From contig CM032230.1 of the NCBI GenBank assembly GCA_019009955.1, forward strand, positions 28,028,001-28,092,000: a stretch of DNA of 64,000 nucleotides, read 5' to 3'. The notes under the pieces were generated by a model. That model saw nothing but the letters and a program-made list of their open reading frames with translations, ran no database searches and was not told the origin of the DNA. The DNA comes from Riptortus pedestris (lineage: Eukaryota; Arthropoda; Insecta; Hemiptera; Alydidae). Shown here one piece after another: positions 1 to 22,984 of this stretch. The translations under genes and the position numbers were made by a program. Position 1 is the stretch's first letter; each line of letters opens with the position of its first letter.

Positions 1-2
1 CA

Positions 3-548
3 ACAAGTGCTACACCAACTCCTGCTCCAGCATTTGGTTCAACAAGGTCTACACCCACTCCTGCTCCAGCATTTGGTTCAACAAGTGCTACACCAACTTC
101 AGCTCCAGCATTTGGTTCAACAAGTGCTACACCAACTTCAGCTCCAGCATTTGGTTCAACAAGTGCTACACCAACTCCTGCTCCAGCATTTGGTTCAACA
201 AGTGCTACACCAACTCCTGCTCCAGCATTTGGTTCAACAAGTGCTACACCAACTTCAGCTCCAGCATTTGGTTCAACAAGTGCTACACCAACTCCTGCTC
301 CAGCATTTGGTTCAACAAGTGCTACACCAACTCCAGCTCCAGCATTTGGTTCAACAAGTGCTACACCAACTCCTGCTCCAGCATTTGGTTCAACAAGTGC
401 CACACCAACTCCGGCTCCAGTATTTGGTTCGACAAGTGCTACACCAACTCCTGCTACTGCATTTAGTTTGACAAGTGCTACACCAACTCCTGCTCCAGCA
501 TTTGATTCGACAAGTGCCACACCAACTCCTGCTCCAAGTTTTTGTTAG
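3..548 (+). CDS. Gene A: C-terminal end of an FG-repeat protein (partial)
   Basis: The true reading frame starts at base 3, not the more open-looking frame starting at 7, which gives only a Leu/Gln-rich shadow. Frame 3 encodes about 14 copies of a 13-residue unit of the type TSATPTPAPAFGS, ending SFC and a TAG stop at 546-548. Each unit carries one Phe-Gly dipeptide in a Ser/Thr/Pro/Ala spacer, the style of FG nucleoporins, whose FG tracts form the pore permeability barrier and bind transport receptors. The last units degrade (VFGS, AFSL, AFDS, SFC). The 5' part lies outside the window, so no folded domain is visible. Genes B and C downstream on the same strand have RING heads, and B has an FG-like tail, so A may be a third member; that is inference. 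Alternatives are an unrelated FG nucleoporin or a low-complexity secreted protein. Confidence 0.7.
   Translation, partial: TSATPTPAPAFGSTRSTPTPAPAFGSTSATPTSAPAFGSTSATPTSAPAFGSTSATPTPAPAFGSTSATPTPAPAFGSTSATPTSAPAFGSTSATPTPAPAFGSTSATPTPAPAFGSTSATPTPAPAFGSTSATPTPAPVFGSTSATPTPATAFSLTSATPTPAPAFDSTSATPTPAPSFC
3..548 (+). repeat. 39-bp coding tandem repeat, about 14 units
   Basis: Units start at 3, 42, 81 and so on every 39 bases to 510. The length is an exact multiple of three, so copy number can change without a frameshift. Central units are almost identical, differing mainly by a CCT/TCA (Pro/Ser) alternation, while the last three are diverged. This suggests recent unequal exchange in the middle of the array. 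Confidence 0.95.
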
Positions 549-676
549 ATTAATGCTACTCCAACTCCTGATGGTATTCGCTGAATGAGGTGTAATTTTG
601 ATAGTGCCTAAGTTCTCTTATAGGGGCCTTGTAATCTTGCAATTAGGTCTATCTTACGCCGTCATTATGATTTTAG

Positions 677-686
677 AATAAATAAA
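677..686 (+). terminator. Likely polyadenylation signal of gene A
   Basis: Two overlapping AATAAA hexamers lie about 130 bases after the gene A stop codon, in AT-rich sequence with no competing open frame. Confidence 0.5.
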
Positions 687-2180
687 TGTATCTAGTGAAA
701 TTTTATGATAATTCCACAATAAGCAATTTATCTGTGTACAACTGTATATTTGGTGTACCAACATGCTAATGTTATTAATGGTTTGGTATTTTTTTGTACT
801 TTCAGGAATTGTATATGGCTGTGAAGTATTTGTTCATAAATATGTTTTTCCCTTTTTTTACCTCTTCCGAAATATATACATACATTTCTAAATGTAATCC
901 TTTGGTGTATTAAACTGTTTGACATAGTTTTGAATGTATCTATTATTATTACAAGACAATTGTTATTTTCACTATTTCCATCATGAGAGTACTTTCTTTC
1001 TAAAGCCATTTGCAGCAAATCTTTTTTGGCCTCATTATTGCTGATTTTTTCTTTTTCGTTTACAATTTCTTTTTTATAGTTCTTTTCTGTATCTGACTAA
1101 TGAAACAAATGATATTTTATGATATAAATTCATTGAGTATATAGCTGTTAATAATTTCTTGTTTATTTTGTTTAGTCAGTGATCTGGTCAACAGATGTTA
1201 AGTATAGGAAGTGGGAGTATAGCACCTTGGCTAGGTGTTACAGCTATGTCAGGAAAATGTAACTGATAATACTGAAATAATAACTTTGGTGTTTGTTTTT
1301 TTTTTACCTCAAGAAACAAAATGAGTTGATTATATTTTTTTCTAAATTGTAAATATGTTGTTAATATCATATCTATTCATATACACTTAACAAATATAGG
1401 GAAATAAAAGTGTATGATAGAAAATATATATTCATATAATATTTGTTATTTTTTGTTAATCAATTATCAATTTAGTGTCACCCTTATTGTCCCCTTCCTT
1501 TTTACCTGCTGTCATTTTATACGTAGGACTAATTACATGAGCTTTCTGGATGTCTCAAAATTTATGCTGGGGCTGGAGTCTGTCCTCTCCTTTTTCAGAG
1601 ACATTGACTGGCATATAATTGTTTAAGTAAGATATATGGCAAACCCTGTCCATCTATACTTGAAGTATGAATATCATTCCGAATTTGAATAGAATTTTCT
1701 TGCTTGCAACTTTCTCCTTCAAACTTTAATTGAGTGGGAGTTTCTCCGCTGAACTATTTGCCTTTTTTCTTGTTCTATTATTTTATGTCTTTGCTAGCTA
1801 AGAACATAATCACCTGTAGTGATTCTGGAAATTCTGTACGTAGTGTTAACAGCATGTAGAGCTTCCTTGATGATTATATACCTGGGATGTTTTTTTATTT
1901 GGGTTCCCTGGCACAGTGGGATTACTGGTAATAAGATGGTGGGCCATGAGACAAAACTCACTCAATCGCAACCACCACCTCTAATGAGTTATGTACATGA
2001 GAGGGAGGGGTATTTGTACAACATCTAAAAGGTGTCTGTGAAATAAAGAATTGGAAATTGAGATAACTCGTGGAGGCAATTTATTGACAGGGGCATATTT
2101 TTGATAGTGCTAGGTTTGTTAACCTACTAAGCAAGAATTTCACCTTTTCAATTAGACAGGGATACTACATTTGGGGACAT
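687..2180. other. Intergenic DNA, nothing recognised
   Basis: AT-rich spacer between gene A and the first foldback element. Short open frames here lack codon structure, splice context or family resemblance. Confidence 0.6.
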
Positions 2181-2331
2181 TTTTAGAAGATGGCCCTTTA
2201 GGGAAAACAGCTATTCAGGTTGTATTCAGATTGTATGTATGGTTTTCAAAGAGTATCTTCAAATGTCCATCACCCCTATTTATGTCCATCGATCCTACCC
2301 AGGAGATGACGAAAATGAGGTCCGTTCAAAA

Positions 2332-2367
<36 letters not shown>

Positions 2368-3103
2368 CTGTTACCGCTCTAGCGGTCGCAATTATTGTTT
2401 AATCGTTACCAAACTCGATATTTACTCGTTTTATGTAAAAAGAAAGATCAAGTTCGTTAACGGTTGAAATCGGGCAAGGGGGAGGGGGGGGGTTTAGAGG
2501 GGAGTATTTCGAAAATTCGAAATATCTCCGTTACCATAGGTCGGATCGAAAAATTGTATAGAATTAATCTTATTGCAAATTAAATATACTATAAATATTG
2601 TTATATACATTTATTCTCTATCTTGAATATTAACCGAGATATTTGCATTTTCCAGTTTTCAGCCATCAGCAAACCACCACTTCTACTCAAGTTACATAAA
2701 CAATACTCTGCTACATAATAAATCACATTATTCGAAGTTTAAATGCCAAAAATTGTATTGAAGAGACCTTTATTATACGAGATAAATGCAAATATGTCCT
2801 GGTGACCCCCCCCCCGTCTTAAGGTTTTGGACTACTAAAAGTTGATTGTTTGAGATAACAATTATTCTGACTCATTATTAATTACAGTACTAGATATAGT
2901 AAATAGTTCTCAATAAAATTAATATGTTATATTCTGATATATTTCAGTAATTGTTTTTCTTTCCGGTGTGAGGCGGGAGACCCGTTTGTTTACATTTCTA
3001 ACCTAAGGTTTCCTTTCAGCAGGTTATTGAAATTGGATGAAGCATTTCTTATTTCCGTTTGTATTTATTCTTGGTGGTGTTGTGTTCCCAGTATGTAGAT
3101 TTA

Positions 3104-3156
<53 letters not shown>

Positions 3157-3434
3157 TAACGTCCACTTTTTGCTACTCAGGCTAATTGGGACGGGTTATC
3201 TACAGGTTACCACCCTTTTCTAGCCAGGGTGGGATTTTAGGATATTATTTAATGAATTTCGTCACTAAATAATTTCCTTTGCCCAGGCGAGAATCGAACT
3301 CGCCACTCTAGGTTTGCCATGTGAGATAAAGGTCAACGCTTTAACTCGCATGGCTAACCTGAGCCCCTGTAGATTTATCTATTACTAAACTTCACGAGGG
3401 AAATCTGCTTAGTTTAAGCAGCCCTTGCGTGACG

Positions 3435-3475
<41 letters not shown>

Positions 3476-3608
3476 CGTACAGTTTTGAACGGACCTCATT
3501 TTCGTTATCTCCTAGGGAGGATCGATGGACATTTGTAGAAAAATTTCGAAAATCGAGTCATGAGTACGACCTCAATAGCTGATTTCCCTTAAGGGAAATC
3601 TGCTAAAA
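2181..3608. mobile_element. Foldback element with long inverted repeats, interrupted by a SINE
   Basis: The left end starts TTTTAGAAGATGG and the right end closes GGGAAATCTGCTAAAA at 3608. The left arm has the features AGCTATT, CAAATGTCCATC, AGATGACGAAAATGAGG and GTTCAAAACT, then (TA)n at about 2336-2362. The right arm has the same words in reverse complement after (TA)n at 3440-3470. The arms are about 150 bp and the microsatellites lie symmetrically at their inner ends. The interior is non-coding. A SINE (3106-3380) is inserted inside. No transposase is encoded, so the element is non-autonomous. Confidence 0.7.
3095..3380 (-). mobile_element. tRNA-derived SINE with 12-bp target duplication
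   Basis: On the - strand the element starts GGGGCTCAGGTTAGCC, carries an A-box-like TAGCCATGCGAG and a B-box-like GAGTTCGATTCTCGCC, and ends in a 49-base A tail (T run at 3106-3154). The flanks GTAGATTTATCT at 3095-3106 and 3369-3380 are identical, a clear target-site duplication showing L1-type retroposition. The long uninterrupted tail and intact duplication suggest a young insertion. Confidence 0.9.
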
Positions 3609-3900
3609 TGGCCAGTGATAGGATGAAAGCCAGGTATGATCGAGCAGCAAATACGGAGGGATTTACTGAAGGACAAATGGTTCTATTATTTAACCCACTA
3701 CGCAGGAAAGGATTATCCTCTAAAATGCAAATGCACAGGGTGGGACCTTATAATGTAATCAAGAAATTGAACGACGTGGTCTACTGGATAGAGATACCAC
3801 AATCTGAAGTCTAAGATAAAAGTGGTTCACGTAGGACGACTAGCCAAATATGGCAATAGTGATTTTGAGTCTATCAGGGACGAAAAGGCTTAAGCGGGCG
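3609..3900 (+). pseudogene. Ty3/Gypsy integrase C-terminal fragment
   Basis: Translation shows an integrase tail typical of Gypsy polyproteins: a basic helix with KARYDR, then EGQMVLL, then GPYNVIKKL and a V-x-H-V-G-R-L-A-K type end. The continuous frame breaks after IPQSEV, and the rest reads in another frame. Gag, protease and reverse transcriptase are missing, so this is the 3' stub of an element whose LTR follows directly. It is not functional. Confidence 0.75.
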
Positions 3901-3904
3901 GCAG

Positions 3905-4425
3905 TGTTGCGAAAACTACTCACGTGAAAAAGTCAGAGTTACGTATTTATGAAGTACGAAGTAGATGAAATGAATCGACCGATGGAAGGACCAAGACCGT
4001 TGGCACCAAAGTATGTTCTCGGTGATACCCCTCTGGTATCTAGGCTTGTCTGGGCTCGTTTCTTTTGATCTCGTCGCCCGTCTATAAAAGCGTCTCAGCT
4101 CGCTCAAAAGTTAGATTGTTCTCAGTTATCTTCATGTGAACAACAGTGCGTTCAGTGCAGTTATAGTGAACACTGCGTTTAAGTTGCAGTGGGGTAAAGT
4201 GTTTATGTAAAGAGCAGCGTAGTGCCGTGTTCTGTGAACTTCAGTGATCGTGTGTTATTGTACTGTGCAACAAAATGTGACGTTATCACTGCATACTGTG
4301 AATAATAGTTAAGAATAATTTACCAAGTGTTTAGTGCATTGTTAAATAAATTGTGCCGTGATAAGAACTCCAAAGCTTGTGCGGTTTATTATTTTTGGTA
4401 ATAAACGCTCAAGTGTCGGTAAGTT
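3905..4425 (+). mobile_element. 3' LTR of the Gypsy-like element
   Basis: The block starts TGTTGCGAAAACTAC just after the integrase stub. It contains TATAAAAG at about 4083 (core promoter) and AATAAA near 4345 and 4400 (poly-A signals), and ends near AAGTTTACA. A second diverged copy of the same LTR lies at 36595-36718 plus 39745-39880. The exact right boundary is uncertain because the flanking DNA is itself a repeat. Confidence 0.65.
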
Positions 4426-4429
4426 TACA

Positions 4430-5508
4430 TAGCCCTGCGTGTCGGACTTTTTATACTTCTATGTAGTCTAAGTACGATATCTTTGTAGGAGCGGTGAAGG
4501 AGGAAGGTTACTTGTAGTTTCAAACTTTTATAGATAAGACCTTGTAATGAAATTATTAAGATAATTTATGTACTTATGTGATAAGACACTCAGTACAGTA
4601 CTGATAATAAAATTTAGGACTTCTAATAAAAACATTATTAATGGATGTAAATATTACATGATTACAACTTTGTAAGGTACTGTATGTCTTATTCATACTT
4701 ATTGTTTTTCTATTATCTCTTTGAAGAGGAGTATTTATTTTCCTCTTAGGATGTTCTACTGCCAATTGGAATATGAAATGGTTCTTAAAATTAGTATGTC
4801 ATGTCAAGTTTTGTATTAACTTTCATATAATAAGTAATTCTAAGTAGTAGGAGGTGTTAAATAGAAATCTCTGCTCTCAATTTTAAATGATCAGTCTAGC
4901 TGTCATAACAGAAATAACTATTGTTTATTGTAGGCAGGCTGTGCTCTCACTGTAATTAGATAAAGGGCTTCTGTCTTTTCTGTACTTTCTTGTGTTCTTG
5001 TGATTTTAATTCTAGTATCAAATGAAGGTGAATTTTCAAATTAACAGCATGAATAGTAAAGTAGATGAGTTCAAAACTCATTTAATAGAAGTCCATATCT
5101 TTTGAAATCGAAATTAATATCATTTTTTATTTTACTAATTGGTATAGAAGTCCATTGGTTGTCTAAATATTAAAGCTTTTAAGACAACGTTATTATGTTT
5201 TTATTTTTAGAAGTCATTCTAATCAGTTTCTCATGATTTATTGATATTTTCCTCCTTTTTAAACTTTATTATGGTTTACTTTATTGAAAAACGAGTTACA
5301 CTCTTTTCTACTTTGAACAGTTATCCAGGGTTGACATGTAAAAGGTATTTCTTGAAAGCTGCTGTAGGATTTGCAGGCAGTGAGGTTTTCTGACTAGTTG
5401 ACCTTTACTTCCATTGAAAGAAAAGTCCTTCCTTTTTCATTTGCAAAGCTTTCTTTTTTCACAAAACGATTAGCTTGTGATGGTTAACAGGTGCTGCTTT
5501 TGTAACTT
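4430..5508. other. Intergenic DNA, nothing recognised
   Basis: The first 30 bases resemble the inner end of the foldback family (TGCGTGTCGGACTTT). The remainder is AT-rich spacer without a supported gene. Confidence 0.55.
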
Positions 5509-5740
5509 TTTTTTTTTATTTATTTTATTTTACGTCCACTTTATGGTACTAGGCTAATTGGGACGGGTTATTTACAGGTTACCATCCTTTTCTAGCCAGG
5601 GTGGGCCTAAGGAGTTTATTTAATGAGTCCGTCATTAAATAAATTTCTACTGCCCAGGGCAAGATTCGAACCCGCCACTCTAGGTCTGCCATGTGAGATT
5701 AGGACCAACGCCCTAACTCGCACGGCCAACCCGAGCCCCT
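5509..5740 (-). mobile_element. tRNA-derived SINE copy
   Basis: Same family as 3106-3368, reading GGGCTCGGGTTGGCCG on the - strand with a B-box-like GGGTTCGAATCTTGCC and a shared 3' body (ACCCTGGCTAGAAAAGG). The A-rich tail has decayed to TAAATAAAA. No clean target duplication is visible. Confidence 0.85.
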
Positions 5741-6134
5741 TTGTTTCTTTTTCTGTTATACTTCTTGGTCACAAACTGGTTCCTTTCATAAACTCATCAC
5801 CCTGGCCTTTTAACAGTTCTGGGAGTTGTCTAACAGTTTAATCATGATCATAATTTTGCTTGATTCTTTCTGTCTCAGTCAGCAGGTTGCTTATTTTTCT
5901 GGCGGCTACATCAGGATCATAACATTTTTCTAGACTTGGAACTGAATCCCTCAGGTTTTGTAACATTTTGCTGCTTAGCAGTTTTGTACCATTATCAGAA
6001 ATAGCATTTATATATACATCAGCAGTCTAAAGAGTTGTCCTCTTTGTAAATGATACTTTTTAATTTAGTCTTCTTCAGTCCTTTGGCTTTGGATACGTAG
6101 GACTGGCCATGAGTTATTAAAGCCATATTGTGAA
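5741..6134. other. Intergenic DNA, nothing recognised
   Basis: AT-rich spacer between the SINE and the piggyBac-type element. Confidence 0.5.
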
Positions 6135-7541
6135 TTAACCCTTAACTGATAACATACATATTTTGTTCATTGCAAGTAACATGCGTCTGTGAGACGTGTA
6201 CATAAAAAAATTGATTTTAGAGGTGCAATTTTTAATAAAACTACTATAAATTAACTAAATAATTGTTATTTGATTGTTCACTATACTTAGACTTTCAATT
6301 TCAATGACATCGGTATCTTAGTAGTTTGCCGAATTTTGATTTTTCAGTTTTTCTCTTATTGATTTTAGTTTTTGATTAGAGCGAATTACTAGTTGTGCAA
6401 TCATCTCATGGTCAAAGAAAAGGCGCCAAACATCTTCAATATTGGGGTTTTTACCAAGTGATTTTGCATTTGGTCGTAAAGCAGGAAGTTTTATTCTCAT
6501 AATATTTTTGGCTGGTGTCTTTATAATTTTTGGCTCGGTTGAACACCATGTGAAGCAGTTTTTTTTCCCCATAATAGTTCTTTGGTTCATCTCTGCTAGT
6601 CATTGAAGACCCATCACCAGAGATGCTAGGGACAACCTCTTCCACTGAATTTCCACCGACCCTTTCATTTGCCTCATCCTCAAGGTCTTGCCACTCTAAT
6701 TCGGACTCGGAATCATGTTCAGAATGTTCTATTTCATCCTCAACATTGTAGGAATCGTCAGAATCAAATTCTTCATCACTAGGCTCAACCTCTTCTTCAG
6801 GAAGAGCAACTATTGACATTATTTTTTTTGTCTTTGCAGAAAATATACCTGCCATACTGAAAAAATAAAAAAAAACTAAAAGAAAACTACATATATCATC
6901 AGAGAAAAATATTGGCGGAAAATTATGTTCAAGAATCTGTAAATATTTTGTCTGCAAAAACATTTCTCGTAAATGGAAAGAAAAAATGTGTGCAATCAAC
7001 AAAATATCATTTGAAAAAGTTTTGAATATAATTACATTAATCTCAAATATAATCCATCAAGAACATAAATAAAAAAAACTAATTGAAATTAGAGGGAACG
7101 TTTAGTAATAATTTTTTTTCTTTTTTCTGAGAACATGAAGGATTAGAACTCTTCAAGGTATTTAGGCAAGTAAATAAAAATATGTATAAAAACAAATTAA
7201 TAAGAACAACATGCCGAACAAACACATTCGAACATGAAAATTATTATTATTGTTTAGGTACATACCTCACACGTTGCACAAAAGAACGTTTCAGGTAATA
7301 CACGTCTGTAAGATGAACACAAATGTTGATACTCGTCTCTTAGACGTTGTACGTTTTAATTGTGACCTTACTAAAACCACAAAACACAATTGATTGGGTT
7401 AAAACTTCACAAGCGTTGTTTACAATATCTAACTTGAACATACACTGAAGGTTTCATTTGAAAAGTAGAGCTAACGTATAAATTGTGGAAAATTAGTTAA
7501 CCCAAGCGTCTCTGAGACTTGTGTTACCAGTTAAGGGTTAA
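6135..7541 (-). mobile_element. Complete non-autonomous piggyBac-type DNA transposon
   Basis: The ends are inverted repeats: CCCTTAACTGATAACA from 6139 and the reverse complement of TGTTACCAGTTAAGGG ending at 7537. Both are flanked by TTAA (6135-6138 and 7538-7541), the target duplication of piggyBac transposons. Subterminal copies of a GCGTCT(G/C)TGAGAC word lie near 6183 and 7505. The interior holds only the N-terminal part of a transposase (6318-6855), so the 1.4-kb element would need an enzyme from elsewhere. Confidence 0.9.
6318..6855 (-). pseudogene. piggyBac-type transposase N-terminal fragment, frameshifted
   Basis: From a Met at 6855 the frame runs through an acidic region (DEEFDSDDSYN, EDEIEHSEHDSESELE) typical of the N-terminus of piggyBac transposases. 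After SRDEPKNYYG the homologous reading moves to a second - strand frame with KIIKTPAKNI and then DVWRLFFDHEMIAQLV, matching the start of the conserved piggyBac domain, and stops at 6318. The shift falls at a T8 homopolymer around 6560. The catalytic Asp triad would lie further downstream and is absent. It is a dead copy, and a role as a short DNA-binding product is only conjecture. Confidence 0.75.
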
Positions 7542-9939
7542 AAATGCGCATTATTTAAGATCCAAACTCTGACTAGGATTGAACACCACAAACAGGCAAG
7601 ATACAAGGGGCTGAAAGGAGATATCCTTTTATTGGGCATACATGTATCTGGACCCTGTGAATATTATGGTTTTTTTATCTGCTTTCATAGTACAAGTATT
7701 TCTCTCAGGTACTAGGAGGAGCTGCATCTAGGAAACATGGACTCTCCCAATTCACTGGATCAACAATCTCCCTGGTCCACCCAGTTGTTCTCATGTACAC
7801 AATTTTTGTTTGATTGATACCAAACTCGATATATAAGAGTTTCATGCAAAACTAAAGGTCAAATTCATTAATGGCTGAAATCGGGCCAGTGGCAGTGGGG
7901 GGAGTAACGAGGGGGGTAATTCGAAACTACCAAATATCTCTGTAATAGATCCAAATAGATTTGTTCTCTATCTTCAATATTGACCGAGATATTTGGATTG
8001 TTTAGCTTTCAGCCTTTGGTAACCCACTTCTCCTTAAGGTCCTATAAACTATACTCTGTTATATAATGAACCACTTCATTTTTAGCTTAAATACCAAATA
8101 TTGTTTTGGACCGATATTTACTAAATGAAGCAAATCCATTGTGATGGCGTCATTGTTTAAGATTTTACGTTCTTAGTTGGAAATGTTTATTTAATATATA
8201 TCATACTCGTTATATAACTGTTTCAATCAACACTAGAGATCATATTTTTTATTTGCAGAAGTTGGACCTGGAATATAGAGGGTTGGAAATTAGAAAATTC
8301 CAAATTTCTTCATTATAATGAATAGGATCAAAAAAGTTATAGAACCAATCTTGTTAAACTATGAGATGTTGTTCTAACCTCTTTTTTGCAACTCAAGTAT
8401 TAAGTGAGTTATTCTTACTTTCTTGTTTTCAGCCTTCAGATAATGACTATGCAAAAAAAAAAAAAAATGTCACACAAGGGCTACATTTGCAAAGCAGATT
8501 TCCCTTGAGCTGATATATGATACGCAGATCTCGTCACGATCTATTCTATTTTTCTTCCATTATACAAAGCCCATGCAAACAGGAATGTAAATACCATCTG
8601 GATATGATATGATAGTGACTCAATTACTCAAAGTGAAAATCTCAGAAGTAGGAGTGGGGGTTTACTGAGACTGATTACTAAACTATGCAAATATGTTGGT
8701 TAATATTTGAGATCCAGAACAAATGGATGGAACGACATTTGTTGGAAGTTACATTTTCAATAAGATTGGTTCAATCTGATTCATAATAACTAATAGAACT
8801 TTTTATGATGTTTCAGTTTATGTTCAACATGAGATGACTATAAGTGGGGAATACTGAAGACTGAAAACTATTAAATGCAAATATCTTTGTTAATATGTGA
8901 GATACAGAAAGAGTGTATAGAACAACATTTGTAGGAAATGAAATTTACAACAAGATTGGATGTATAGAATTTATCTATCGTATTGGATAATCACAGAGAT
9001 ATTTTGTATTTTCTAAATTCCCCATCTCGAAATTCCTTCCCCAGCCAAATTGAGCATTATTGAACTTGATCTTTAGTTGTACATAAAATGTTTAAATACC
9101 ATCTTTGGTAACGATCGAACACCATATAAATATATATTTCATCATCTCCTTGTTAGAATTGATGGATCTTTTTTAGAAAAATATTCTAAAATGCCTTTTA
9201 GATCAACTGGGAGGGGGGGGCTGGCATGTGCCTCTGATGTTTACTCATACAGATAAATGCTTTTTAGTTTTATTTCACTCCTGATTGGGTATAGGAATTT
9301 ATTTGGTGATAGACTCAAAAATAACGAACAAATAATCTTAATATATACAAAATGACTATAATCTCAAGGGAACCGATCCTAATATGCTTGAGTAGATGTG
9401 AAGTTGATACATTTATGGCAGGTTGGAGCCACCCAGAGAAGGTCAGGGCAGTGTGCCGCCAAAGGAATTTAACTCTTGAAAGGACAGTAGGTATGCAGGT
9501 CCTGGAAAAATAGCCCCAGCAGGCAAAGTTTGGTTTGTCAACTCCATGAGGTGCACTACCCAAATAATTTTTTTTTTGTTTGGAAATTTAATTTTTATTT
9601 TGGCATATAACATAACTTCACTCTGGATAGTACATAACTTTGATTGCCTACTCTCTGGGTGTTAGAAATAACTATCTAGAGTCAAAAATATAAATTAATT
9701 TGCCACTTCTGTAGTGGCAACTATTCTTTATTCTCATGCAATTTTACTGGCTTCACCTTAATGAGGGGATTCCACTCTCTAGATATATGACTTTTCCTTT
9801 ATAATTAATTATCATATAAGCCATCTTATGCGTCTTAGCAATTTACTTACAAATTTAAATATTATTTATGGAGCTTCTGGGGCAATATTTATATCAGAGT
9901 AAAATGATGATTATCTTTGCCTTTTCATTTTTATTCTAG
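7542..9939. other. Intergenic DNA with scattered foldback-family fragments
   Basis: Pieces of the foldback family interior recur here in both orientations, for example AATATCTC(C/T)GT, ATTTGCA and ACCCCCACT words at about 7810-8170, 8210-8560 and 8570-9240. No supported gene lies in this stretch. A 5' non-coding exon or promoter of gene B may sit near its right end but cannot be placed. Confidence 0.5.
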
Positions 9940-10018
9940 GAGTACTGTGTGGAATTTCTTAAGTTTTGATTGAATCTGCAGAATATTATAACTAAATGGC
10001 AATGGAGGCAATATCAAA
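9940..10018 (+). CDS. Gene B exon 1 (coding from 9996)
   Basis: A pyrimidine-rich acceptor (TTTTTATTCTAG) ends at 9939, so an upstream non-coding exon is likely. The ATG at 9996 opens MAMEAISK, with the last codon split AA|G over a perfect donor, AAA|GTAAGT. The phase matches the acceptor at 11385 exactly. The same split Lys codon starts gene C. Confidence 0.7.
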
Positions 10019-13000
10019 GTAAGTATTTTTTTTTTTTTTTTTTTACTAATCTGTTAACATTATAAGGTTCTTGAAAGTTATATCTCTGCTTTAAGAGCAA
10101 AAATTTTCTTTTCCTTATGGAACTGCTTTGGGAAACAGGTCTTAATAACTAAACGTCTTCCCACCAATTTCTTTATTAAAGCACAAGGCCATTCGGCACT
10201 TATGTGCCATTATCAGGTGCTGACATGTCTCTTTGTTGATGAATTGCCAGCTAAGTGCTGTTCCAGCTGATGTGGGGCCATCATAATTTGTATGTTGTCT
10301 GGATGTGAGTGTGCAGATCTGGGAAATAGGTCTTAATAACTGGAAGTCTTCCGAACAATTTCTTTATTAAAGCACAAGGCCTTTCGATACACACAACGGC
10401 TTTTCCCACATCCAGCAACATGCTAATTATGATGACTGCTCGTCGAGCGTGAGCTGGACCAGCACTTAGCTTGCCATATATGAATGAAGAGACTTGTCTG
10501 TACCTGATGATGGCGCGTTATTCCCGAAAGGCCTTGTGGTAGTTATAGCAAATTTACCAGTCTTATGACATTTGTTGAAAATGTCTCCCCCGTCTTTTGT
10601 TCTTGGATTACTAAAATTAGTATGATTTAGATTATTATGATTCATTATAAATTACAATGATGGCTAAATATAATAAATAGTTTTCATTAATATTTATTTA
10701 TTTATTAACGTCCACTTTTTGCAACTTAGGCTAATCGGGACGGGTTATCTACAGGTTACCACCCTTTTCTAGCCAGGGTGGGATTTTAGGATGTTATTTA
10801 ATGAATTTCATCACTAAATAATTTCCTTTGCCCAGGCGAGAATCGAACTCGCCACTCTAGGTTTACCATGTGAGATAAAGGTCAAAGCTTTATAATATTA
10901 ATATATTATATTCAATATATTTCAGTAATTGTTTTTCTTTCTGATCAGAAATATTTCTGTCTATCTATTAAGCTCTGAGAGGCTGGCTAACTTGTTTGTT
11001 TACAATTCAGACACTTCCTGTTATGGAGGTTATTAAATTGTAAATTAACTGAATCACTTCTCATTATCATTTGTATTTATTCACTCAATGTTCACTGTGT
11101 TGTTAAGTGTTACCGGTATGTAGATTTATCTATTATAGAACTTCACCTTGTAAATTGGCTTAGTTTACCTGAATGACAGAATTTTTTAATTTTTATCAGG
11201 GATGTTTTTCACAGATAATTGACAGTCAACTTAATTCTGTGAAATATTTTCATAGCTTAATTCCCACAATCTTGGAAGTATAAAAGTTGTTTACAAAGAA
11301 CTATTTATCTAGCATTCTAAATACATTTAAGGAATTACACGTCACCATTTCATTATTGTTAATCTCTTTTCGATTATGTTGCAGGAATATTATTGATGTC
11401 TTTATCAAGATGATACAATCCCTTGAATGTCCTGTATGTTACGAGTATGTTTCTTCCCCCATATGGCAGTGTGAGGCAGGCCACATACTTTGCAATAACT
11501 GTAGACATTCTATATTTAGTTGTCCAACCTGTCGACGTTCTTTTTCAACTGTTCGTGTTAGAAGTTTAGAACAGGTAAGCTCCTGTTTTTTAAATTATGG
11601 TATTTTAGTACGAAAGGTTTTGTGCATCTCTTTAGCACAAATGGAGTTGTTTTGTTTTAAATGACCTCTGCCTGTCTTTTGGCCATCCTGAATTTATCTT
11701 GACTAGTTTTGGCATGAAGTCTGTAGATATGTATGTACCATGCATAATTCAAAAACACCCTAGAATATTAATATTTCATATTTTGGACTGCATCTAGTTG
11801 TGCATCTCCTCTTTTAACTGAAATCGACTAAAGAGGAGGAGGGGAGGGTTAGTAGATGGCAAAAATAAAAAATTGCAAATTTATCTGTACCTAATAGAGA
11901 TTAGCAAATTTGTATAGGACATTTTATTTATCAGAAAACTGTCTACACTCTTGTTTTTGAGTTTGTGGCCACTGTCAATAAATATAATAACTTTAAAGAG
12001 ATCTATAAATTATATTCTATAACATTTTTTCATCTCTCCTTAGGAACATCATAGGTACCATATAATATTTCAAATGGAATAGTTTTAAATAGAGCACGGA
12101 AAAACACTTTTTTTATTTATTTAATTACAGTACAAGGAAGTCATATGATTCTTACAACAAATTTTTAGATAGAGAGTCAACAGGGAAGATAGGAAAATAA
12201 CATACCATAGATTGCTATATACTTCTGGTGGTATTTGAAAAATTGGGTTGGCATTACTGTTTCAAATGATTAAAATATCCTAAAATTTTGCTGAGAATCT
12301 CAGGGTTGGGAATCAATGAACTGAAAAGTTTAAAAAATTGAAATAGACAGAGTAACTTTCATTCCAGAGTAACTTTCTCAATCAGTAGACTCATTTCTTA
12401 AACTATATAAAAAGGGACATAGTATCTATACTTGCATAATAATCAAATAAACGAATTAAAAGATCCATACATGTATTACTTAATACAGCAAAATTATTTA
12501 CAAATTCATCACTACTGTGCAAATTTCAATTTATGATGAATATCCTTGATAACAGTCATTGGATCTATACTTTTCTTTTGTGGTTATTGGTCACGTAGAT
12601 TTAAATCAAAATATATCAGTTTCTGATGTTTCAGTATTCTTTATTATCTTTGTGAAGGCCTTCCACAAGTAAATTTAATTTTCCTTCTTACCTGTGTAAA
12701 ATTCCTCAGAACTTAGCCAGGGGTTGTTAAAAGAACTTCTCGCAAATCCGCGTGTATTGAAGAAATAAATCAGATGAACATTCCAATAGTACTGTTAGCC
12801 TTAGCTGAAGAAGTATCCTTTTAAGTTCGTACAAAATTCTTGGTGTTTTAAGTAATAAATGCAGAGATTATTATTCATTTATTTTATTATTATATGGGAG
12901 GGGGTAGGGGTATTTTCAATTTCCTGGGTATCTTTTTACCGGGGGAATATTTATTCAACTTGTAAAAAGGGTCACTTTATTGAGTATTCAGGAATTTCCT

Positions 13001-16000
13001 TACAACCCTGGCAGTATCTAATAATATCGATTTTTGTGACTGTCTAATTATCTCTTCACATATATTTAAATATTTAGTACATTTGACCGTATTTTTAGGC
13101 ACAAGTCCTTTTGTAGAAATAACAATGACTGTAGTAACTTTTGCTGATTCCAATTTGTACAGATCTTTCAACTCTGCAGCTAAGTCTTGATATTTTCTCA
13201 ACTTCTCTGTAATTGTTTTCTAACATTCTCATCATTTGATACCGGCATATCAATGATATCTGTTGGTTTATGAATTTATTATTACATTGCAGGTTTATAC
13301 TCAGAAAACTGGAGTAAAAACATATCGGAAATCCAATCGATGTGAATTTTGTAATCATCACATGTTAAGGGAAATTCAAAAATATTCACACAATTCTAAC
13401 AGTTTCAAGGAGTACCCATTGCTGTTTCATCTTTCATAATTTCTGTTGGCAGATTTAAATTCTTGGTGCCTACTATTGTGGTTTTTGGCTCGAGTCCATT
13501 TGTACTTATGATAGTAGCCGTAATTGTGGCAGACTTCAGCTTGTATTCTTCTTTAAACTCAATAGCTAATTCTTGATATTTTATTAATTTTTCGGCATAG
13601 GCTTTTCAAATATTCTCATCATTGGGTACTGCAATGTCATATATCAGCAGTCTTATTGATCTTGTCAATAATGGGATTGTATCCGGTTTGTTATTTATTG
13701 CACAGTATGGTCAGTTTCATTGCTGAATCCCAATACATATTTTCATTATCTTTTTCCAATAATTTTTGGGGATTATAGAGATAATAACCGACCTTCCTTT
13801 CTACCATGCTGACGAAGTCTTAATTTATGACGTCACCACAACATGTTTACATGCATCTCACAAAGTAAAAGTTCAATGAAAACTATATTTTGTATTTACC
13901 CTTGGAATGAAGTGGTTCATGATATAACAGCTTATTGATAATATGACATGAATAGGAGAGGGGGTTTACTGAAAGCCAAAACAAAAAATTCCAAATATCT
14001 CGGTTAATATTCATGATACAGAAAATATGTATAAAACAACATTTATAGAACACTAGCTAAGTTATCCGGCTTGCCCAGGAATTCATGTGAGGCTGAATGT
14101 TGATGGTAATTTTGGCAAGGCTTTACTTTGCACAATATTTTGACATTTCCCCGTCCCAGTGTTTAGGGTTTATACTACTAGGGTGCTTGGTGGATTTGTT
14201 AATAATAAAATCATTTGTTATGTAAGGCTTCACTGTCCTCAATATTTTTATTTTTCCAGTCACCTGTGCATGTAGTTTTTTTTTATAATGTAATGGACTA
14301 TGTAATTCATAATGACAGTAAAATTTCCTTTCCCTTGGTGCGGTACATAGCCCAACGGTGACAGCTGTTTAGGACGTCATAACCGCCATTAAAAATACTC
14401 TCTTGAAAGTCTCGATTGTTAACTGTATATTCATATTGGAACATACTGTGTTCAGTAAAGTATATCATATATTAACGGAGCAGAGTTAACAAATAGTAGA
14501 AATAACTGGGTGCACCTCCGCAGCATTCATCCTATTAAATTATTTATTTATGATAATTAAACAAATTCACATTCCTGAGAATAACATTGCGTTGCTAAAA
14601 GTATATGCATCTAATGTAATCATTAGACTCTACTTAAGTAATACATGAATTACAGCACAATAGACTATGAGAGGTTATTACTTCAAACACTTTGAGAGTA
14701 CTATAACTAATAATAATATAATTTAATAATAAGTTGTGGTTTTTTGAATTCTTGATAATCCATGGAGCTTTCAGGGAGAGTAATAAAATCTAAACCTCTG
14801 ATTTAAATTATTCTTTCTTTGTAATTAATCTCATTTCAGATTTCTGACTTCATGCTCTTTCCATGCAAAAATGATGGCTGTGATAAAATATTACCTCTGA
14901 CAGATATTCAATGTCATGAGAACATGTGTACACTTGCAAATGCATTCAGCCGCCCAGATAACCATACAAGGTTCACTATTCTCCAGTACAACATTTTAAA
15001 ATATATTGAGCATGATATTGCACCCTTCCTTGTGACATCGCGTGAAACGGTAAATAGTATTTCATTTATTTTCTTCTCCTATTTTAGTTTAAACTTTTAT
15101 AATAAAAATTAGTGCATATATAATTTAAAAGATAATATCATCTCCAAATCTTTCTAACTTATTCCATAATCTCTGGGAATAACCACACTTGAAGTACTTC
15201 CCATTCATGCTGGAACACAATAGAAGAGTTAATGAATTATACCATGATCTGATTTCTCATAAACAATTCATGTGTCAGTAAATGTATAAATATCATTTTA
15301 TTTTTCAGAATGAACAAGCAACACAAACAAATTTAAAAAAAAGAAACCTTAAAGATGCCTCAACAATGACTGATCCAACTCCCAGTATGTATTTTTTATT
15401 GAATTGGTTACATATATTTGTATTTAATTAGAATGTTTTTGCTTCATTTAGTCTATTACTGCTCTATCTTTTAATATTTACATACACAGCTGCCACAGTC
15501 TTTAAAGGGTCTGGGCCGGCCTCTGCATCTGCTATTTATGACTATATCTTGAGGTACCTACCACTAATTAGGAAGCCAGGCTTCTCAAGTTACAAACGCC
15601 CAAACTCTGCACATCTTCCAGCTCATTGAGCCTGGGTTTATCTCTTTCTATACTTTCTTCTGGTAGCATCTTGGGAAATCTATTAGTTTCAATTCTTTCA
15701 ACATGTGTCAGCATCTGCAGTCTGTTTAGAACAAATGCGAGGTTTACCATACAAGTCTATTAGTTCGGTATTGCTTCTGATATGCAATTTGTGCTGCCCC
15801 TCAACCGCTCAAAATTGTTTCCTTACGACTCATCTGTTCTGAAGCAGCAGTCCCAGTTTTCTTTTCTGGGAGTCTATGTTTCACTTCTATATGTGATCTC
15901 AGGACTAATGGCTGTTAATTTATACCATGATCTGGTTTCCTTTCCCAAGGAGCTTTCTGTAGGAGATACCATTCTATCTCTAATGCTGACTTCTATGTTT

Positions 16001-19000
16001 ATTGCTCTGTGTTTCCATTCCTCCCAGATAATAATAACATGTAACACATAAACCAATATGAGGTCGACAGGGATGCAGCAGAACTGATAGGACAAAGGAA
16101 GTATCCCTACACCTCCCGAGGCTCAGTGGTACCAACCTACTACTCATTCAGAATCTCAATCCTGTAATACATTAAATTATATTAACAAATCTGATTACAT
16201 TATCTTCACAGTGCTAAAACTTTTTGTTCAAATAATTTTCATGTTTTAATCAAATAAAGTATTAAATACGCTTAAGGAAAAACTGGTGTTTCTCATGATT
16301 TAATGTTTAGGAGAAGAGAAGGGGGGGGGGAGCAGTATACTTTGCTTGGTGCAATCTGTTACTGGCATTAAAAAAATAATATAGATTTGAATTAATTTAT
16401 CCACGTGAGGTACCTGGTAGTTCATATTGGAAAGAATTGTTGAGCATATCAATATTTCTATGCAAATTACTTTCTTCATAAATTGTTAAAGAATATATAA
16501 AGAAAAGTTACTCTAAATAGCAAAGTAAAAACTTTTGTTATTTGTACGTTTGCGAAGAAACAAATAGAAAATGAAATATCGCAATTTTTAATTTCAGGCC
16601 TCCCTTACATTCCCCACTCCTGCTCGTCCTTAGAAATTTTGGTACATCTTATTATCATGGAAGTCTTTTGTGCCAAATCAAATTGTTCACATTCTAGCTC
16701 TAATGCTAACTGCTATGTTATTGCTCTCTGTTACCATTCCTCCCAGATAATTAAGTGATGTACAAGTAGGAAACATACACTCACAACAATACAATTCTGT
16801 ACCTCTCTGGATTGTGTAGCATGTAATCTGTTTTATCCTTGTACGTATATAATGTCTTGTATTCCTTATGAAAGTTCTTCTACAGCACTGGCAAATGCCT
16901 CAAAGGATCGTCATACTTAATAAATCGTTGGCATACACTATAAGGTGTGTGAACCTATAGTATATGGTACCTTCAAAATTAGTTTTGTATTCCTCGGATT
17001 ACCACTTCAAAGACAAGGTCGCACAACACCAGTGATTAAGGGTTTCCTTCCCTTAGACCACTAGTAAGCTCAAAGCTATCTGAGTAGGGAGGAAAGTTTT
17101 TCCCAGCTTCTTATCTAGAAGAAGTAAGTAAAGATGTGACCAACATCATACAAGTTTGCCTTTTCTAACATCTACCTAATTAATGGTGAAGATTAGATCT
17201 CTCTGATTAACCTTTCCAACAACTCCAAGTCCTTGTTTGACCAAAGTTTATTTTATAAGCTTTGGATACAATGGCTAAGAGCTCCTATCATTCTTGCAAC
17301 TTAGTTTATTTCTTTTTTTCTTCCTTGTACAAAATAAAGGAAGTATTTTAATCACAACAATATTCATATTTCAATAGATTAATCATTTATGTACTTAGAT
17401 AGGTATTTTGCATAACTCATAGTCTTAGTGTTGATAATTCATATTTGGGATTACTATAATGCCTAGTTGTGCACCTTGCTTTTGGTCATAATTGACTAAG
17501 AGTAAAGAGGGTTTTAGGGGAGGATGAATATAAAAGAAAAAAAAAATGCACTGTACATATTAGAGATACAATAAACAATTGCTCAGAACATTTTTTGTGT
17601 ATTATGAAATCCCTTTTTTGTGAATCTATAAATTATGTTTTATGACATTTTTCAATCCGGTGCACTGGAACGGAAATTTCGTACATCACATTCAAGTGAA
17701 ATAATTTTTAATAAAATGCAGCCACACTTTTTGTTTATTTAATTTAATATGAGTATAAGGAAGCTATGGTGCCCATGACAGATTTTTTTTAAATAGGCAC
17801 AATGAACACCTTTCCCCTCAAAAGCCTGAGTCCTCAGTCATGCCTTGTTTCTTCCACTAATTGTTCTGTCTTTTCTACTTTTACTTCATCTCTGCAAGAT
17901 GCATACATACTGACACAATATATTGAAGAATATGATTCTGTAAATTCTTTCACAGTTTTTTACTGTTGATTACACACTTTTTCAGAGATTTTTATAAAAT
18001 ATGTTTAGCTTAAATTCTTTTACAGATAGAAAATACCCTTGCTTTAAAACATGCACATTTCAATGTATGACTTTTATTTTTTGACAGTAGTGTTGTTAGA
18101 AGTGAAGAATGCTGTGTACTTGAAGAGAAGAAAGCTAGATGAGTCACTTTCTGTCTTCCTCAATGAATGCTTACAAGTTCCTCTGAGGATGGAGACAATA
18201 GTCATTGAAAGTGCTTAGCACTGAAATTGAAAAAAAAACTTATTAAGAATTGGAAGCTTTCTTCTGTTCAAGTTGACTTTTATTTTGTTATGTTTAATTA
18301 TATTGCAATAATTGTTATACATATTCATTAATTGTAATAATTTTTCTGTTTCTTTCAGATGTAGGGAATATATTCTCCCCAACTAAAGGTTTAACAACTA
18401 CTTTAAAAACAAATCCAACTGCAACTTTTAAACAAAGCTCAAGATCACCTAGTTGTTCTTTGCAAGTTATGCGACCAAAATGTGTCAAACAAAATACAAC
18501 TGTGGTTAATTCTTCTAGTGATTGCAGTGGTCGAGTATTTGCTATAAAAAATTCAATTTTATCCCATAATGGGCATATAGATAAAATGTTTAAGAAATCT
18601 GAACATTTAACAAATAATAAGGGAAAAGATTCTGGAAATAATTTAGTAACTAGTGAAAAATTGAATAATTTTTTACGTGTCAATGACTCAAAGCTAACAT
18701 CTAAGAAGGGCTCCACTAGATATGATTGCTATTTACAATCTTCTTCAAATAAGGTTGTTGAAGTCTCTACAGCTCCATCAGGTTTCAATTTCACCCCTTT
18801 TATTAAACAGGCACAATCATTTTTCCCAACACTATCTCAAGATTCCAGTTGCGACAGAAGCATTAAGTTTGGGTTAAATTCTGAAGGTTGCTCAAGTCAT
18901 TTTTCTGGTTCAGGAGTACTCCCAGAAGCTTCTACATCTTCATTAGAAGTTGAATCAGTATTTAAATTTCAAGCCACTAATGAACAAACTTTAAAGGGTA

Positions 19001-20976
19001 CTAAAGTAACGAATGGATTGACAAAAAGTCCTAAAAGCACTACTGCTGAGTACTGTAAAAAGTTGTACAACAAAAACTCTTCAGGATTTGATTTTAGTGC
19101 TTTACTTAAGGCACCACCAGTATTTACTTCTGATGAAAATAGAAGTAATGGGCCTACAAATACTTTGAATTCTAGTTTTAATACTACAACTGTTAGCAGT
19201 TGTAGTGCACCTAGTTCATCTACTCAAAGTATAAAAAGGCCTGTTATGTCTTCTGTAATATTTGGTGATATTTCATACGATGATAATATGAAAGGGAGTC
19301 TTGAATCAGTATCTCATAAAGTGTCTTCAGTTTTTAATTCTGTAAAAAGTAATGAACAATTTGTTCCAAAAGTAACTTTACCAGTTTTACAGGAGTCAGT
19401 AAATACTCCTCCTGTATTTAGCTTTTGTATTGGCAGGTCTTCTGCTGAGACAAGTTCCCAAACCCCTTCATCTTCATCGAATTTCACACTTCCTTCATAC
19501 TCTAATAGGAATACACAAAGCTCCTGTTTTGATAGCTCATCAAAACAAGTAAATATAAACTGCAACCTTTTAGGAAGTACTGTGGATACCCAAAACTCAA
19601 ATTTCAATTTAAAAGAATGTGGTATAAATTTTCATACCGTGAATAAGTCTAATAGTGATTCTTCCTCACCTAGAACTGATTCGGTAATCAATTTCAAAGT
19701 AGACCAACAACTTGATAATAACCCATTTGGTATGTTTAGTTCACCTTCTACTCAGGATTGTGTTTCAAATATTAGACGTGAATTGAGTGCTTTGAGAAAT
19801 AGATGCAATACTGATGTTACAAGTAATTTCAATTGTAGTAAATCTGTAACTATCACACCCTTCTTGTCTCAGCCCTCTAGTACAAATAATAACAATGCCA
19901 GTAACACAGATCTTTCAGTTAGAAATTATTTTTCAGATTCTAACGCTATTCCCACTAACAGGTCAACTGCTAACAAATTCGATCTACTTCCTGAAGGAAC
20001 ATCAGTGGCATTTTCTGATCCTGTCTCTCCCTCTTTGAAGACTAAATGTGAAGTTTCCTCAGCTATATCAGGTCCTCTTTTTGCTTCTAAAATTGGCAGT
20101 GATGAAGTTAGAGGAACACAATCTCATTTAAAATCTCCTACTAGTAACCAAATATTAGTAAGTTCTCAGCCTATTCAAAATGCACCTTGCCTCAAGTTTG
20201 ACTTATCAACATGTAAAGATCTACTTGATTATTTGTCAAATGATTTCCCAACCTCCTCAGTTCATAGGAATAAAACATCCACTTCAACAAGTTTAGGTAA
20301 TTTGTGCCCATCTAGCAAGAGGGATAATAACATTTTCAAGTTTCATGAACAAAGCAATACATTGTCAAGTCCTAATTTTAGTATGAGACCAAATGATTCT
20401 AAGATCTTGGCTATTCAAGGGTCATCCATGTCCCTTTGCAGCCCTGGAACTCCTCAAAAAACTGAGTCTTGTCTTAACTCAGATTTTGTAGTCCATGAAA
20501 GACAGCTACTTGGAGAGTCCAGTTTTTTTGAACCTAAACCAAATCTAGACTCAATTAACAGTGCTTCAGCTAATTCACCCTTTCCTTTTTTCTTTTCTAA
20601 TGTCTCCTCCCATAGAAGTACAATGACTCCTTCACTGGTATCTCCAGGAACTAGTAGTTCTATTCAAGAACGAATTATTGTGCCAAACATTAAAGTCAAA
20701 AGACCTGACTCAACTTTTTCAAATCAAACTATGAGTTGTAGCGTTAACACAACGAATCCCACTTCTGTTTCTGTAGATGATAAGCCTTTCCACTTTGGTA
20801 ATCCAGTTTTATTCAGTTTTGGAAGCAGTATAAAATCCTCTAAAGAACCAGTTTCTTCAAGTTGCACAAATTCCCATTCATTGTCAGTTAACCCTTTATT
20901 CACATTTGGTACACAAAGCACTAATCTTTGGGATACATTTGGAAGTTCAACATCTGGGAGTACGAAGTGGCAATAA
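9996..20976 (+). CDS. Gene B: RING and SIAH-type zinc finger joined to an FG-like tail
   Basis: Five coding exons join in phase: 9996-10018, 11385-11574, 14840-15049, 15309-15384 and 18359-20976 (3117 nt, 1038 residues plus stop). Residues 23-57 form a C3HC4 RING with all eight ligands (CPVC, QC, GH, CNNC, CPTC), closest to SIAH/Seven-in-absentia ligases. Residues 80-101 are a SIAH-type finger, C-x4-C-x11-H-x3-C. The second SIAH finger and the substrate-binding domain that normally follow are absent. Residues 167-1038 are instead a Ser/Asn/Thr-rich, probably disordered tail with spaced Phe motifs (FNFTPF, FSFG, LFTFG). RINGs of this type recruit E2 enzymes; FG tails occur in nuclear pore proteins. 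A pore- or condensate-linked ubiquitin ligase is inference. Retention of a 2.6-kb open exon argues for function. Confidence 0.8.
10139..10545 (+). repeat. Penelope-like terminal repeats (two direct, one inverted)
   Basis: The segment GGTCTTAATAACT...TTTATTAAAGCACAAGGCC occurs near 10139 and again near 10325. A reversed partner (CCTGATGATGG...CCCGAAAGGCCTTGTG) lies near 10500. This end structure resembles Penelope-like elements, but no reverse transcriptase is present here. Confidence 0.45.
10693..10885 (-). mobile_element. tRNA-derived SINE, 5' truncated
   Basis: Same family as 3106-3368 (ACGTCCACTTTTTGC, AGAATCGAACTCGCC), but it stops within the tRNA-like head near 10885. It lies in gene B intron 1. 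Confidence 0.85.
11385..11574 (+). CDS. Gene B exon 2, RING domain
   Basis: The acceptor TTATGTTGCAG and donor CAG|GTAAGC bound a 190-bp exon. It begins with the G completing Lys8, then NIIDVFIK and the C3HC4 RING, ending RVRSLEQ. Open frame left of 11385 and right of 11574 is intron read-through. The gene C RING exon has the same length and begins with the same NIID. Confidence 0.9.
12977..13760 (-). pseudogene. Two remnants of a non-LTR retrotransposon 3' domain
   Basis: On the - strand two segments (about 13201 down to 12977, and 13760 down to 13410) encode the same C-terminal region: KYQDLAAELK / KYQELAIEFK, then VISTKGLVPK / IISTNGLEPK. This arrangement is common after the reverse transcriptase in insect LINEs. 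Both contain stops and lack the polymerase. They lie in gene B intron 2. Confidence 0.6.
14043..14275 (+). repeat. GC-cored dispersed repeat, copy 1
   Basis: Starts ACTAGCTAAGTTATCCGGC and continues with GGCTGAATG and ACAATATTTTGACATTTCCC. The same body occurs at 29760-29960 (inverted), 42040-42150 and 61970-62200, where the start reads ACCCGGCTTCGCCCGGG. Confidence 0.7.
14840..15049 (+). CDS. Gene B exon 3, SIAH-type zinc finger
   Basis: The acceptor ATCTCATTTCAG and donor ACG|GTAAAT bound a 210-bp phase 0-0 exon. It opens ISDFMLFPCKNDGC, aligned with the SIAH segment after the RING, and keeps C-x11-H-x3-C. The first ligand pair is C-x4-C rather than the usual C-x6-C. A Met (14852) inside the exon is not the start. 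Confidence 0.85.
15309..15384 (+). CDS. Gene B exon 4, linker
   Basis: A 76-bp exon between TATTTTTCAG and CCCA|GTATGT. It encodes a polar linker (NEQATQTNLKKRN, then DASTMTDPTP) and ends in phase 1. It joins the tail exon as A|AT (Asn) with no frame conflict. Confidence 0.75.
15565..16095 (-). pseudogene. Non-LTR retrotransposon C-terminal remnant
   Basis: The - strand reads ITYRSET, an interrupted WT, then NRLQMLTHVERIETNRFPK. These match the 'YGAETWT ... RLxWLGHVERM' landmarks of many insect LINE proteins. Stops and frame changes interrupt it. A 60-bp stretch (TCTAATGCTGACTTCTATG...) recurs diverged at 16697-16760. It lies inside gene B intron 4. Confidence 0.5.
18359..20976 (+). CDS. Gene B exon 5, FG-like low-complexity tail
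   Basis: The acceptor TTTCTTTCAG ends at 18358, and the frame stays open for 2618 bases to TAA at 20974-20976. It starts NVGNIFSPTKG. It is rich in Ser, Asn and Thr, with Phe-centred motifs at intervals (FDFSALLK, PPVFSFC, FHFGNPVLFSFG, PLFTFG) and ends NLWDTFGSS plus a short tail. The style is that of FxFG nucleoporin regions, but true FG pairs are few and most are near the C-terminus. The apparent Met start at 18460 lies inside this exon and is not needed. Confidence 0.85.
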
Positions 20977-22734: not shown

Positions 22735-22984
22735 TATAATAAAACAAAAACAATCACGAAATAATATAATAAAATTGTCTTAGAGACTGATAGCACAGAA
22801 GACACTGAAAGCCAGGATAGAACTAAAACGGATTCTCGAGCGCGAATCAAAAACGTTACAGTCAGTGCTCTTCATTGCTGTAGACTTGGAAGGGGACATA
22901 ACTGACCCATGAAGCTCAACTAAATTTTAATTATTGCCACCAGTAAACCTTCGCTCGTACTCATTCTATATTGACTATAAGCTG

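Follow-up and report, generated by a model that had tools for sequence, protein, structure and literature searches.

RING-SIAH genes with long tails in Riptortus pedestris, including a putative FG-repeat chimera formed by tandem duplication

Organization of the locus

A stretch of 64,000 nucleotides of the Riptortus pedestris genome (G000:C3:28028001-28092000, contig CM032230.1, referred to below as the window) was analysed together with its surroundings for genes that join a RING-SIAH ubiquitin-ligase head to a long tail. The assembly comprises 1.08 Gb in 138 contigs, and neighbourhood comparisons covered the 184 kb around the cluster. Four genes were labelled: W, the five-exon RING-SIAH gene in the window; U, its tandem sister; N, an upstream nucleoporin-like gene; and X, a third copy of the head. 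The order is N, U, W; some 15 kb separate N from U, which it precedes in the same orientation, and X lies further right in the window.

Gene W and its RING-SIAH head

The exons of W, in window coordinates, are the following.

9996..10018, plus strand: exon 1, encoding MAMEAISK; phase 2 at its end
11385..11574, plus strand: exon 2, C3HC4 RING with ligands C23, C26, C37, H41, C44, C47, C54 and C57; codons at about 11428-11532
14840..15049, plus strand: exon 3, first SIAH zinc finger with C80, C85, H97 and C101; codons at about 14864-14929
15309..15384, plus strand: exon 4, linker containing EQATQTN and DASTMTDP; phase 1 at its end
18359..20976, plus strand: exon 5, Ser/Asn/Thr-rich tail of 872 amino acids with an FG cluster at about 20794-20943; the end is NLWDTFGSSTSGSTKWQ

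The gene model spans 9996-20976 and encodes 1038 amino acids, with AG/GT borders at all four introns and phases of 2, 0, 0 and 1. These borders and agreeing phases had been proposed in the initial annotation, which was made from the letters of the window; they were confirmed, and the corresponding borders and phases are kept in U. As modelled, W is a five-exon gene with an intact RING, an intact first SIAH finger and an 872-residue tail.

The RING of W matched Pfam Sina_RING at 1.4e-13 (51.1 bits against a cut-off of 29.3). The finger follows the pattern C-x4..6-C-x11-H-x3-C and matched Sina_ZnF under the cut-off, at profile positions 2-35 of 77. Residues 20-103 of W aligned with human SIAH1 (9g0l) at 1.9e-22, covering both motifs. 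The earlier reading of a C3HC4 RING followed by a SIAH-type finger was therefore upheld by the Sina_RING match and the SIAH1 alignment. All eight RING ligands and the four ligands of the first finger are invariant across W, U and X. The Pro of the last CPxC and the Arg after it, which we take to be the linchpin residue, are kept in W and U; X has the Pro and a Glu in place of the Arg.

The head stops short of a complete SIAH protein, as had also been annotated. A second SIAH zinc finger was not found in W: Sina_ZnF covers its first half only, and the sequence after the first finger aligns with U and X alone. This non-SIAH segment, ILQYNILKYIEHDIAPFL, is common to the three genes. No C-terminal substrate-binding (TRAF-like) domain was found either, Sina_RING being the sole Pfam family above its cut-off in the 1038 residues. 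The EQATQTN and DASTMTDP stretches of the linker resemble LC8 dynein-light-chain motifs. U retains the second of them alone, and N carries a SIGTQA stretch.

Sister gene U and its FG array

U was found by a genome search with the head of W, which gave matches 8 kb left of the window. It encodes 1275 amino acids and has the same four head exons with phases 2, 0, 0 and 1 as W.

L009 1518-1534, 2066-2255, 5501-5710, 5979-6045 and 7205-10000, plus strand, left of the window: exons 1-4 of U and the start of its exon 5
1..548 of the window, plus strand: 3' end of the FG-repeat exon of U, made of 39-bp units encoding APAFGSTSATPTP; stop codon at 546-548

The exon 1 border reads ATGGAAGCAATATCAAA followed by gtaagc, and exon 4 is 9 nt shorter than that of W, in frame. 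The alignment of U with W comprised eleven pieces, with identities of 71-86% except in one 29-bp piece (97%). It began upstream of exon 1 and stopped about 20 bp short of exon 5 of U.

Exon 5 of U consists of 85 units, 84 of 39 nt and one of 36 nt, encoding a 13-residue repeat; 13.7 copies lie inside the window. The phase-1 junction is in frame with 1113 open codons. The tail contains 74 FG dipeptides, which are spaced by 13 residues in 66 of 73 intervals and form a dense FG array, and its first 640 residues matched Pfam Nucleoporin_FG (PF13634) at 2.8e-43.

The coding state of U was investigated by comparing its head with that of W over 134 codons. On 321.3 nonsynonymous and 80.7 synonymous sites, 13 and 14 changes were counted, respectively; dN/dS was 0.21-0.30. 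A neutral model was rejected with P = 2.4e-4; so was, with P = 0.028, a mean dN/dS of 0.525, the value expected if one copy were neutral. The result indicates that both heads, as modelled, are under purifying selection. At a divergence of roughly 0.15-0.2 synonymous changes per site, no stops were present in the modelled exons of either gene. In the array, 81 of 84 units retain the Phe codons, and the sole length change is the single in-frame 36-nt unit.

Gene N and the tandem duplication

To trace the source of the array, the 1.08-Gb assembly was searched for a 32-base piece of the repeat unit, allowing three mismatches at most. There were 71 occurrences, all on the plus strand: 70 in the U array and one at C3:28003631, inside the FG exon of N. 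This exon contains 46 FG in a 928-residue stretch, and its repeats reached 84.8% identity with the U array over 210 columns among the matches listed. Homology between the two genes extends beyond the array.

584..1155, plus strand: 3' flank of U, homologous to the region of N that holds the last intron and the putative last exon (G000:C3:28004674-28005250)
667..11321, plus strand: U-to-W interval including the 5' part of W, collinear with the N-to-U interval (28004759-28020000)

The flank alignment scored 259, against a mean of 89.9 and a maximum of 133 in 60 shuffles, with 384 of 527 positions identical. Comparison of the N-to-U with the U-to-W interval gave 28 alignment rows, 12 of which form a chain of blocks at 73-83% identity, all on the plus strand; one 29-nt row fits the chain, and the remaining 15 rows come from a stretch of dispersed repeats. 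Within the 184 kb, nine of the 12 blocks have exactly two occurrences, and two have a common third place through local duplication. The last block is a dispersed repeat with 81 matches in the 184 kb. This repeat family is found at window 2181-2650 and at many other places. At the junction, the exon 5 acceptor of U aligns with coding sequence of N, TTTAGTGCTACAACTCC, at a modest score of 36 over 47 columns.

The order is thus N, chimera, W; the flanking intervals are collinear, and the junction lies inside both genes, as in a chimera made by tandem duplication. Since the array and its flank are homologous to N and the intervals are collinear, one tandem duplication best explains U. On this sequence comparison, U would be a RING-SIAH::FG chimera produced by one old duplication with breakpoints in the FG exon of N and in intron 4 of W. 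In the simplest history, the duplication would have left N and W whole, with U between them made of W exons 1-4 and then the FG repeats of N. The initial annotation had proposed a RING-SIAH head joined to an FG-like tail as a new domain combination. The link to nucleoporin-type FG repeats proved stronger than first read, because the FG array of U is a true one, with homology to the array of its neighbour; the tail of W itself is not supported as a nucleoporin FG domain.

A 265-residue open reading frame (ORF) with ankyrin repeats lies inside the N-to-U interval (L029 6844-7638; G000:C3:28014844-28015638). Its stretch has no match in the U-to-W interval, which points to a later insertion or to a loss from the other interval.

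In the six-exon 5' model of N, residues 16-34 form a hydrophobic segment and a KRRRK cluster is present; judging by phase, the model lacks one or more exons ahead of the FG exon. The layout of membrane segment, basic cluster and FG C-terminus is one that we take to be POM121-like. An assignment to POM121 was not adopted, as only the layout points to it and no POM121 profile matched the 5' model or the FG exon. Nup153 was rejected: no unbroken W-x-C-x2-C..C-x2-C was found in the plus-strand frames of the 184 kb, a search that a finger split by an intron would escape. N is called nucleoporin-like because POM121 has no Pfam or PDB support and at least one exon is missing from the model.

Tail of gene W

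The ORF of the W tail is 892 codons from stop to stop. The longest ORFs in 100 shuffled windows had a median of 128 and a maximum of 208 codons, so the tail is far outside chance. It consists of 20% Ser, 9% Asn and 9% Thr; disorder of the tails was judged from composition only. In shuffles of the same composition, the seven FG of its 872 residues compared with 2.3 expected (p = 0.0085) and its three FxFG with 0.15 expected (p = 0.0005). FxF was enriched too. Four of the seven FG lie in the last 60 residues, at positions 979, 987, 1016 and 1027 of 1038. The FG repeats of this tail are not dense: the density of 7 in 872 residues compares with 46 in 928 for the FG stretch of N and 74 in 1114 for U.

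The origin of the tail was investigated at several levels. In the genome it was found at one place, W itself, at E up to 1e-3 (two candidates scored), and further genomic copies were therefore rejected. A copy downstream of U was rejected too, with no tblastn match in the window or its flanks among the matches listed. None of the 13 N-W alignment rows among the matches listed touches the FG exon of N or exon 5 of W, and the tail showed no similarity to that of U (p = 1). The 3' flank of W was not taken as homologous to that of N or U; the scores were 62 against a shuffle maximum of 75, and 74 against 56 but in TA-rich sequence.

The C-termini of W and N did align, with p of 0.004-0.02 over five length choices. 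The putative last exon of N (D-IWDTFIKSNS) and the end of W (NLWDTFGSS) have WDTF and 14 identical bases in common, and this 14-mer occurs at only these two places in the 184 kb. The likeness is suggestive only, because it was seen by eye before testing. A fusion like that in U may also have given rise to W, at an earlier date, with the C-terminus of W as a relic of N. On the proposed duplication history, its tail predates the duplication.

Gene X and other copies of the head

The features of X in the window are the following.

51930..52119, plus strand: RING exon of X, with the linchpin Arg replaced by Glu
53833..54018, plus strand: exon 3 of X, SIAH finger and the common QNNILKNIEETFSSFF segment
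59699..59818, plus strand: candidate for the last exon of X, 39 codons and a stop, phase 0

Identity of X with W was 48% and 37.5% per exon. No FG tail for X was present in the listed ORFs, and on the exon model X probably ends without a long tail. The ORFs of a 54-bp repeat (window +65355 to +69631) were rejected as a tail of X, as their frames are broken and no link was shown. The tandem array itself occupies L030 1593-5605 (window +65593 to +69605), with NCNDILLEREEELAAEGA-type units containing stops and frameshifts; its 5' leader sequence recurs at about +69086.

Sina_RING was found in at least seven places of the genome above the cut-off and in one below it: U, W, X, one on C4, two on C6 and one at C3:56.01 Mb. 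The C4 copy is a full-length sina-like ORF of 302 residues, and the SIAH-like copy at C3:56.01 Mb retains the second finger (Sina_ZnF 1-66 of 77). The two sina-type RING exons on C6 (27941780 and 27927135) lie about 15 kb apart, and one of their RINGs is identical to that of the C4 ORF. The intron after LEQ/LDN has the same position in U, W, X and the C3:56 Mb copy. In a six-row tree, from which the two C6 copies were left out as RING exons only, W grouped with U and next with X (89/90); the C3:56 Mb copy, sina and SIAH1 fell outside this group.

Some ORFs of the window lie outside these genes. Those at 22048-22779 (minus strand), 38967-39680 (plus) and 6451-7056 (minus) resemble, in this order, a transposase of the Tc1/mariner type, a non-LTR reverse transcriptase and the N-terminus of piggyBac. 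Scans for bacterial-type promoters and terminators, tRNA and Rfam families were uninformative.

Search for related architectures

The whole-protein search suggested with the initial annotation found no protein of the same architecture. Among the 7989 candidates scored, those with the most words in common, whole W gave one weak match, P0001, of unrelated architecture with a C-terminal Sina_RING. P0001 is a 773-residue metagenomic protein ending in Sina_RING, another unusual placement of this type of RING; its start is, as we take it by eye, helicase-like and followed by a coiled coil. The head region with a long-protein constraint had no match among 46 candidates. The head profile gave four matches at E up to 1e-8 among 654 candidates: P0002, P0004 and P0005 are short and carry no FG tail, and P0003 is listed as a Myxobolus protein containing SIAH domains. 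The absence of homologues in this protein collection says little, because it seems to hold few animal proteins. A literature search, judged on titles and the start of abstracts, found no described RING/SIAH-FG family.

Discussion

W shares the RING and first zinc finger with SIAH/SINA E3 ligases such as SIAH1 and Drosophila sina. It differs from them in lacking the second finger and substrate-binding domain, in place of which it has a short segment and a long tail. The tail of U is, like those of FG nucleoporins, an FG array, homologous at the DNA level to that of N; unlike FG nucleoporins, U and W have a RING head and no recognised pore-anchoring or membrane part. RanBP2/Nup358 is an FG nucleoporin with SUMO E3 activity. 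It resembles U and W in combining modifier-ligase activity, which is predicted for U and W, with FG repeats in one protein; it differs in having no RING, in acting with SUMO and not ubiquitin, and in its origin. POMZP3, RGPD and TRIM5-CypA are natural gene fusions. We know of no chimera that joins a RING ubiquitin-ligase head to an FG-repeat domain.

Chimeric genes formed by tandem duplication are known in Drosophila yakuba, as outlined in PMC5460883, where 23 of 30 de novo gene structures of tandem-duplication origin are reported as expressed in testis. As in the cases outlined there, parts of two genes are joined in U, with the 5' part of the downstream gene and the 3' part of the upstream gene meeting at the junction. 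Nucleoporin fusions are known in leukaemia (PMC8712647). Oncogenic NUP98, NUP214 and PAX5-POM121 fusions have, like U, a nucleoporin part and an effector domain. They are somatic and pathological, whereas U is in the assembled genome and, by its divergence, has long been retained.

The preferred reading, with a rough probability of 0.55, is that the cluster makes RING-SIAH ligases with long tails substituted for the substrate-binding half, the tail of U being directed to the FG phase and that of W to something looser. In both genes, head and tail would be spliced together. The RING would recruit an E2 for ubiquitin transfer, the ligands, Pro and Arg being intact in W and U, and the tail would pick the target through weak multivalent contacts. 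For U, the predicted target is the nuclear-pore FG phase, or FG-binding transport receptors and condensates; for W, it would be a related, looser FG/Ser-rich environment.

Several results weigh against this reading. The W tail alone had no Pfam or PDB match and no Nucleoporin_FG (PF13634), and the FG exon of N had no Pfam match. Compared with the whole FG exon of N, the W tail was borderline (protein similarity p about 0.035), with no clear homology overall; a copy of that exon as a whole is unsupported, and only the last 60 or so residues look related. The FG acceptor of U, GATTTAG, looks weak; another AG, 34 bp upstream, competes with it and, if used, would run into a stop, and the matching AG is also present in intron 4 of W. 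Changes in the U array were a near-neutral mix of 35 synonymous and 67 nonsynonymous, counted in strict register. An earlier Phe-anchored version of this test (35 to 80 by uniform expectation) was circular for the Phe codon and was rerun. The initial description of an FG-like tail in W consequently holds for its length, its Ser/Asn/Thr-rich composition and its enrichment in FG and FxFG, but the motifs are sparse and the likeness to nucleoporin repeats is not borne out. The profile searches suggested for the two halves likewise recovered Sina_RING in the head and nothing in the tail.

The points on the W tail feed a serious competitor, somewhat short of even odds, in which this is an ordinary Ser/Asn/Thr-rich disordered tail with incidental FG. 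W would then be a RING ligase that uses an intrinsically disordered region to contact substrates or for phase behaviour and has nothing to do with pores; U would be the only nucleoporin chimera. The low FG density, the borderline p against N, the lack of similarity to the U tail and an age greater than that of the duplication, on the proposed history, agree with it. So does the absence of a Pfam FG match, though the FG exon of N lacks one too. Incidental FG fits less well with the joint enrichment of FG, FxFG and FxF over same-composition shuffles, with the WDTF and 14-nt identity (first noticed by eye) between the ends of W and N, or with the same head family sitting on the FG array of N in U. 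The opposite extension, that the head family took a nucleoporin C-terminus twice, is speculative and rather improbable. The capture would have been ancient in W, where it is now degenerate with the FxFG cluster and WDTF end kept, and repeated in U, founding a class of ligases resident in the FG phase, with FG nucleoporins, or else transport receptors and their cargo, as substrates for ubiquitylation. If it were true, the FG array of such ligases would be both address and solvent. A split of W, with its head exons and the 18359-20976 exon in separate transcripts, is very improbable. The 3-kb intron between them would permit it, but exon 5 has no Met before about residue 38, its acceptor has a good polypyrimidine tract, the phases match, and in U the four-exon head is likewise followed by a tail exon in phase 1.

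For U, it is doubtful, though to be reckoned with, that the FG exon is absent from the fusion protein, the array being silent or separately translated and the head transcript ending at the upstream AG or in intron 4. The weak-looking acceptor with its competitor would allow this, and the open frame of the array extends upstream beyond the acceptor and includes a Met. The openness of the array is partly a property of its unit, since a minus-strand frame of 1125 residues is open too; together with the near-neutral changes, this makes the open array alone a weak proof of coding. Against a silent array stand the phase-1 junction in frame with all 1113 open codons, the in-frame nature of the only length change, the retained Phe codons and the constraint on the U head relative to W. 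Decay of U, and perhaps of W, as duplicates without protein function is quite unlikely. X has lost the linchpin Arg, U lacks the putative last exon of N and its array is weakly constrained; yet the dN/dS of the heads, the rejection of one neutral copy and the absence of stops after this divergence all speak for retained function.

The nuclear pore owes its permeability barrier to FG domains, and protein turnover inside this FG phase is hard to study. If the U fusion is expressed, a ubiquitin ligase would be placed among proteins of the nuclear-pore type. Such a natural fusion of a ligase head with an FG array would be a ready-made test of whether an FG tail alone is enough for pore entry and of what is modified there. 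The locus also shows, base by base, how one tandem duplication can make a new domain combination and how a repeat domain can grow from a few units to about 85.

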